Shown here one piece after another: positions 7,089 through 9,005 of a stretch of 12,403 nucleotides of DNA. Each line of letters starts with the position of its first letter. Position 1 is the stretch's first letter. Both the position numbers and the translations under genes were made by a program. Where the stretch lies: NCBI GenBank assembly GCA_019454625.1, contig JACFNY010000023.1:1-12403 (forward strand), written 5' to 3'. The stretch is from Sphingomonadaceae bacterium. Lineage in GTDB: Bacteria; Pseudomonadota; Alphaproteobacteria; Sphingomonadales; Sphingomonadaceae. A model generated the notes under the pieces. That model was given only the letters and a program-made list of their open reading frames with translations, ran no database searches and was not told the origin of the DNA.

Positions 7089-9005
<1,917 letters not shown>

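Follow-up and report, generated by a model that had tools for sequence, protein, structure and literature searches.

A lone in-frame stop codon in ligI of an otherwise open protocatechuate 4,5-cleavage gene cluster in a draft Sphingosinicella genome

Results

Gene content of the locus

We closely examined a stretch of 12,403 bases (here named the window) that comprises bases 1 to 12403 of the 13,729-base contig C254 of a draft Sphingosinicella genome (here named G000). This genome has a size of 2.70 Mb in 677 contigs and is 78.46% complete and 3.9% contaminated; its nearest named relatives are Sphingosinicella sp. MAG-117 and Sphingosinicella soli, and a ten-N gap begins at the window's end. 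Judged by its protein family matches, the window carries a protocatechuate 4,5-cleavage cluster that is open apart from ligI (Table 1). The minus strand harbors ligC, ligB, ligA, ligJ, a dehydrogenase gene and a gene for a LysR regulator, and the plus strand ligK, ligU and ligI. The names ligJ and ligC, the latter presumably encoding the dehydrogenase that makes 2-pyrone-4,6-dicarboxylate, were given by domain content and position, and no NCBIfam match was found for the probable ligJ. Internal stops are absent from the neighboring lig genes of the window. The setting of ligI, whose product serves one step in the degradation of lignin aromatics, next to ligU and ligK is also that of the operon of strain SYK-6.

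Three further features of the cluster were observed. The DUF1932 dehydrogenase is the fastest changing among the compared genes, as measured by identity to the sister genome G003. In the LysR regulator, LysR models match two separate stretches, an extra N-terminal one (about residues 7 to 80) followed by a PcaQ-like LysR protein (residues 84 to 380), as if it were a protein with two DNA-binding domains; its alignment to the genomes G003 and G001 spans the same 383 residues. Furthermore, the ligB stop of G003 and of a second sister genome, G227, is lost in the window, and the frame extends to a later TAA with an altered tail; ligB tails are variable among relatives.

Table 1. Features of the window with their positions, strands and the evidence for each
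Feature	Position	Strand	Evidence or remark
Probable ligC, open, TAA end	1002..1946	-	PF01408 and PF19858
ligB, protocatechuate 4,5-dioxygenase beta subunit, open, TAA end	1949..2809	-	NF009903, 521.1 bits (cut-off 317)
Altered ligB tail	1949-1975	-	Comparison with G227 and G003
ligA, protocatechuate 4,5-dioxygenase alpha subunit, open	2811..3215	-	TIGR02792, 226.4 bits (cut-off 108.6)
Probable ligJ (4-oxalomesaconate hydratase), amidohydrolase, open	3212..4237	-	PF04909 match
DUF1932/NAD-binding dehydrogenase	4234-5100	-	Between probable ligJ and LysR gene
LysR regulator	5164-6315	-	LysR models
ligK, 4-carboxy-4-hydroxy-2-oxoadipate aldolase, open	6339..7088	+	TIGR02798, 389 bits (cut-off 304.5)
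ligU, 4-oxalomesaconate tautomerase, directly upstream of ligI, open	7042..8133	+	NF033377, 537.9 bits (cut-off 440)
ligI, 2-pyrone-4,6-dicarboxylate hydrolase gene, cut by in-frame TAA	8130..9005	+	PF04909; 462.9 bits to 4d8l
Altered ligI start: ATG/GTG absent, only TTG, overlapping ligU stop	8130..8141	+	80-locus comparison
In-frame TAA, ligI codon 154	8589..8591	+	Tyr in 200/200 relatives
Codon 158, Gly	8601..8603	+	Asp in 198/200 and Glu in 2/200 relatives (200-relative alignment)
His178, after the stop	8661..8663	+	Aligned with residue 180 of SYK-6 LigI
Asp246, after the stop	8865..8867	+	Aligned with residue 248 of SYK-6 LigI

The stop codon replaces an invariant tyrosine

On either side of the TAA the ligI frame stays open, over 8061 to 8588 before it and 8592 to 9002 after it. 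When read through, its product aligns with SYK-6 LigI (PDB 4d8l, 4di8, 4di9 and 4dia) over residues 5 to 290. The read-through protein matches PF04909 (Amidohydro_2) with 191.3 bits, and its two halves match with 82.1 and 99.4 bits in one frame. The gene has the amidohydrolase fold and the full-length similarity to SYK-6 LigI that mark a LigI; an uninterrupted reading frame is missing. Column 154 of the alignment is tyrosine in all 80 loci taken from GTDB genomes (79 TAT, 1 TAC), none of which has a stop. Adding 120 listed database proteins gives tyrosine in 200 of 200 relatives, a set that counts a few genes twice, as both protein and locus. The codon aligns with residue 156 of 4d8l. The HxH motif, the later histidine and the aspartate are all present in the read-through alignment, the latter two past the stop; the position of Asp246 is Asn in 4dia. 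The continuous LigI similarity around the TAA, the family tyrosine at its position, the match to Tyr156 and the location of the second histidine and the aspartate behind it had all been proposed in the initial annotation, and each held in these comparisons. We take His178 and Asp246 of the window to have catalytic roles. The next in-frame start lies at 8784, so a second piece would be without residues 155 to 218.

The tyrosine codon at column 154 is also the least varied of 49 two-codon columns compared, while other tyrosine columns of ligI are mixed TAT/TAC. This near-uniform use of TAT may reflect a codon-pair preference before TTC.

The start region and codon 158 also differ from relatives

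The initial annotation had described the gene as free of any second lesion, which did not hold, since the usual start is gone and codon 158 encodes Gly. In relatives, the ligI ATG overlaps the ligU stop or comes shortly after it. In the 30 codons that precede residue 6, 75 of the 80 loci have an in-frame ATG and the other 5 only a GTG. In the window, the TTG at 8130 is the sole in-frame start between the conserved body and an upstream stop at 8058. Compared with SYK-6 LigI, the gene is cut at the equivalent of Tyr156 and is missing the usual ATG. Since ligA of S. soli apparently uses TTG in the same stop-overlapping arrangement, the TTG probably still works as a start, if a weak one. Loss of the ATG may have reduced ligI expression, either before or after the stop arose.

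No codons of ligI are more unusual than the stop and codon 158, which are no more than 12 bases apart. A single rare residue like that at codon 158 is not exceptional: 80 of the 200 relatives have at least one at a conserved site of the protein's second half.

Intact ligI in the closest sister genome

A search of 397 genomes of the family identified the complete, one-contig genome G227, which is labelled as the same species and is collinear with the window at 93.7% identity from end to end (13 gap bases). Its ligI lies in the same gene order, shows 95% protein identity to that of the window and is intact, with an ATG start and tyrosine at codon 154, whereas the window has TTG and TAA. Relative to this intact ortholog and to the 80 loci, the frame of the window's gene is broken in the manner of a pseudogene. 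LigI matches at E ≤ 1e-60 were obtained in 114 genomes, and an internal stop was present in three, namely G000, G292 and G117. In the latter two the stop lies elsewhere in the gene; furthermore, ligI of G292 is also frame-broken, and that of G117 is a truncated remnant with gaps. Within Sphingosinicella, ligA is present in four of six genomes and absent from two that are 99% and 100% complete, which indicates that the pathway is dispensable in the genus. In these two genomes the ligU-ligI stretch was unmatched except for chance-level pieces of 39 and 36 bases in one of them.

Among the 120 listed of 8000 scored database candidates, the closest full-length matches are 95, 94 and 93% identical. 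With the N-terminal piece as query, 1654 of 1745 candidates gave a match; 120 of these were listed and 11 inspected. One of these, P0164 (155 amino acids, 73% identical to the piece), ends exactly one residue before the same tyrosine, at either a stop or the end of its 1,077-base contig. P0122 and P0151 end at most eight residues from the tyrosine position, and because their contigs are only 817 and 614 bases long, these ends are likely contig ends.

Substitution patterns in ligI relative to two sister genomes

A comparison with G003 hinted that ligI may be an old pseudogene that is already decaying: on the window branch, 9 nonsynonymous changes, counting the stop, and 11 synonymous ones fall from the stop on, compared to 1 and 7 before it. 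This contrast was gone with the closer sister G227, where the nonsynonymous and synonymous counts are few, at 5/9 after the stop and 2/6 before it (p = 1). For the whole gene the ratio was 7/15, compared to 39/85 in eight neighboring genes (p = 1), and no nonsynonymous excess was observed; both tests with G227 exclude the stop as well as two changes in the uncertainly aligned codon 3. Although the lost start would fit an old pseudogene as well, the gene body contains no frameshifts, and the 80 relatives mentioned above also have rare residues at conserved sites of the second half; we regard long-standing decay as extremely unlikely. As no sign of relaxed selection was seen relative to G227, any loss would be very recent.

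In-frame stops and frame breaks elsewhere in the genome

The TAA could also stem from faulty assembly or base calling in a draft genome of poor quality, with an intact ligI in the living population. We scanned coding regions in 61 contigs of G000, including that of the window; 19 consisted wholly of N, and the other 42 gave 407,477 readable bases, the larger contigs being mostly chosen through hits of earlier searches. The scan flagged 83% of simulated internal stops. It marked 16 places among 286 open reading frames (ORFs) of at least 150 codons in G000 and one in a stretch of G001. Of those in G000, only ligI was interpreted as a gene that a single stop interrupts. The other 15 were rejected as cut genes by eye: 12 are gene junctions with a start within ten codons, and three (L121, L131 at 290 and L142) are shadow frames.

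The quality of the draft (677 contigs, 78.5% complete, 3.9% contaminated, 18 N gaps in the 42 readable contigs) lends weight to an error, and so do genes broken in frame: 3 of about 41 genes in G000 (from 26 short-chain dehydrogenase and 18 AMP-binding matches) are split across frames, and among the listed matches to the same two families no split gene was seen, either in G003 (39 and 24) or in G001 (60 and 24). The split genes lie on C407 (N gap), C463 and C559. Their breaks, near L137 8418, L168 2903 and L169 6050, are located at a ten-N gap in one case and at apparent joins in two. Since none of the three appears to involve a base change, their relevance to a stop made by one base is limited. 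One G001 match in these two families has an inside TGA, and among the matches listed in a search for TonB receptors, one from G003 has an inside TAG and none from G000 a stop. The clustering of the stop and codon 158 within a few bases would also suit a local error. A single error, however, would not account for a start region that differs from relatives at several bases, and no second lone stop was seen in the 286 long ORFs. In view of these observations, an artefact appears a serious alternative, albeit one we hold to be somewhat improbable.

Readthrough of the TAA

The initial annotation had also raised readthrough of the TAA by near-cognate tRNA-Tyr; by this or another suppressor, full-length LigI would be made. 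The intact remainder of the frame and the lack of any sign of relaxed selection on ligI are consistent with this, and Belinky et al. 2021 (PMC7918605) argue for bacterial tolerance of many in-frame stops. However, TAA is a common terminator in this genome: of 278 long ORFs with a stop at their end, 28 terminate in TAA, and ligB and ligC of the window do so as well. Two flagged ORFs that end in TAA are, judged by their sequences, probably rpsR and glmU. A TAA followed by T is, moreover, a strong terminator context, which counts against readthrough. No stop-reading tRNA was present among the 12 tRNAs found in the 78%-complete genome (S. soli gave 43 tRNA matches). The stop is absent from all 200 relatives and therefore does not mark a recoding site that is conserved. 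Unconserved in orthologs and identical to an ordinary terminator of the genome, the TAA gave this proposal no support, and we consider readthrough very unlikely.

Search for a second LigI or a bypass

A second LigI, which the initial annotation had named as a possible substitute, was not found: a search of the 78%-complete G000 with the read-through protein matched only the gene itself. PF04909 matches occur at three places in G000, namely the probable LigJ, LigI and a weak partial match on C357 (38.1 bits). A bypass by protocatechuate 3,4-cleavage was rejected because PF00775 had no match in the available 78% of G000; one match was obtained in G003 and none in G001.

Discussion

The findings point to a nonsense mutation that arose very recently in the ligI gene of a Sphingosinicella population whose cluster is otherwise open, to which we assign a probability of about 0.58. 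This reading draws on the position of the TAA at an otherwise invariant tyrosine, the intact ligI of a genome labelled as the same species, the rarity of in-frame stops in the readable sample of the genome, the loss of the usual start together with the departure at codon 158, the two other family genomes among 114 with a broken ligI, and the dispensability of the pathway in the genus. Counted against it are that no second sequence has the same stop, that the assembly is fragmented and that nonsynonymous changes are not in excess. A sequencing error and a very recent loss had both been named at the outset; both remain live, with loss the more probable of the two. Together with readthrough and an old pseudogene these make four readings, all of them ordinary in kind.

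If the nonsense mutation is real, translation would yield at most 153 residues, and the product would presumably be dead since both the aspartate and the second histidine of the active site come later. 2-Pyrone-4,6-dicarboxylate would still be formed by LigAB and LigC and, barring its removal by some other enzyme or by other cells, would accumulate. Such a build-up is predicted because ligA, ligB and ligC are open and neither another LigI gene nor one for 3,4-cleavage was found in the 78%-complete genome.

According to PMC8091115, a Novosphingobium strain deleted for ligI, desC and desD, 12444PDC, makes 2-pyrone-4,6-dicarboxylate. It resembles the predicted state of the window in that LigI function is absent and ring cleavage is kept; in contrast, that study describes an engineered deletion with a measured product, whereas the window is known from sequence alone. 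It is conceivable, if improbable, that the window stems from a wild population with LigI switched off and ring cleavage and LigC kept, which would excrete 2-pyrone-4,6-dicarboxylate from lignin aromatics like engineered strains and perhaps feed pyrone-opening neighbors.

If the TAA is an artefact, it illustrates that metabolic conclusions from a single stop in a draft as fragmented as this one first need support from reads. If it is real, a pathway that is of interest for making a polymer building block would have been interrupted recently at ligI, and the organism may be a natural producer of this compound.
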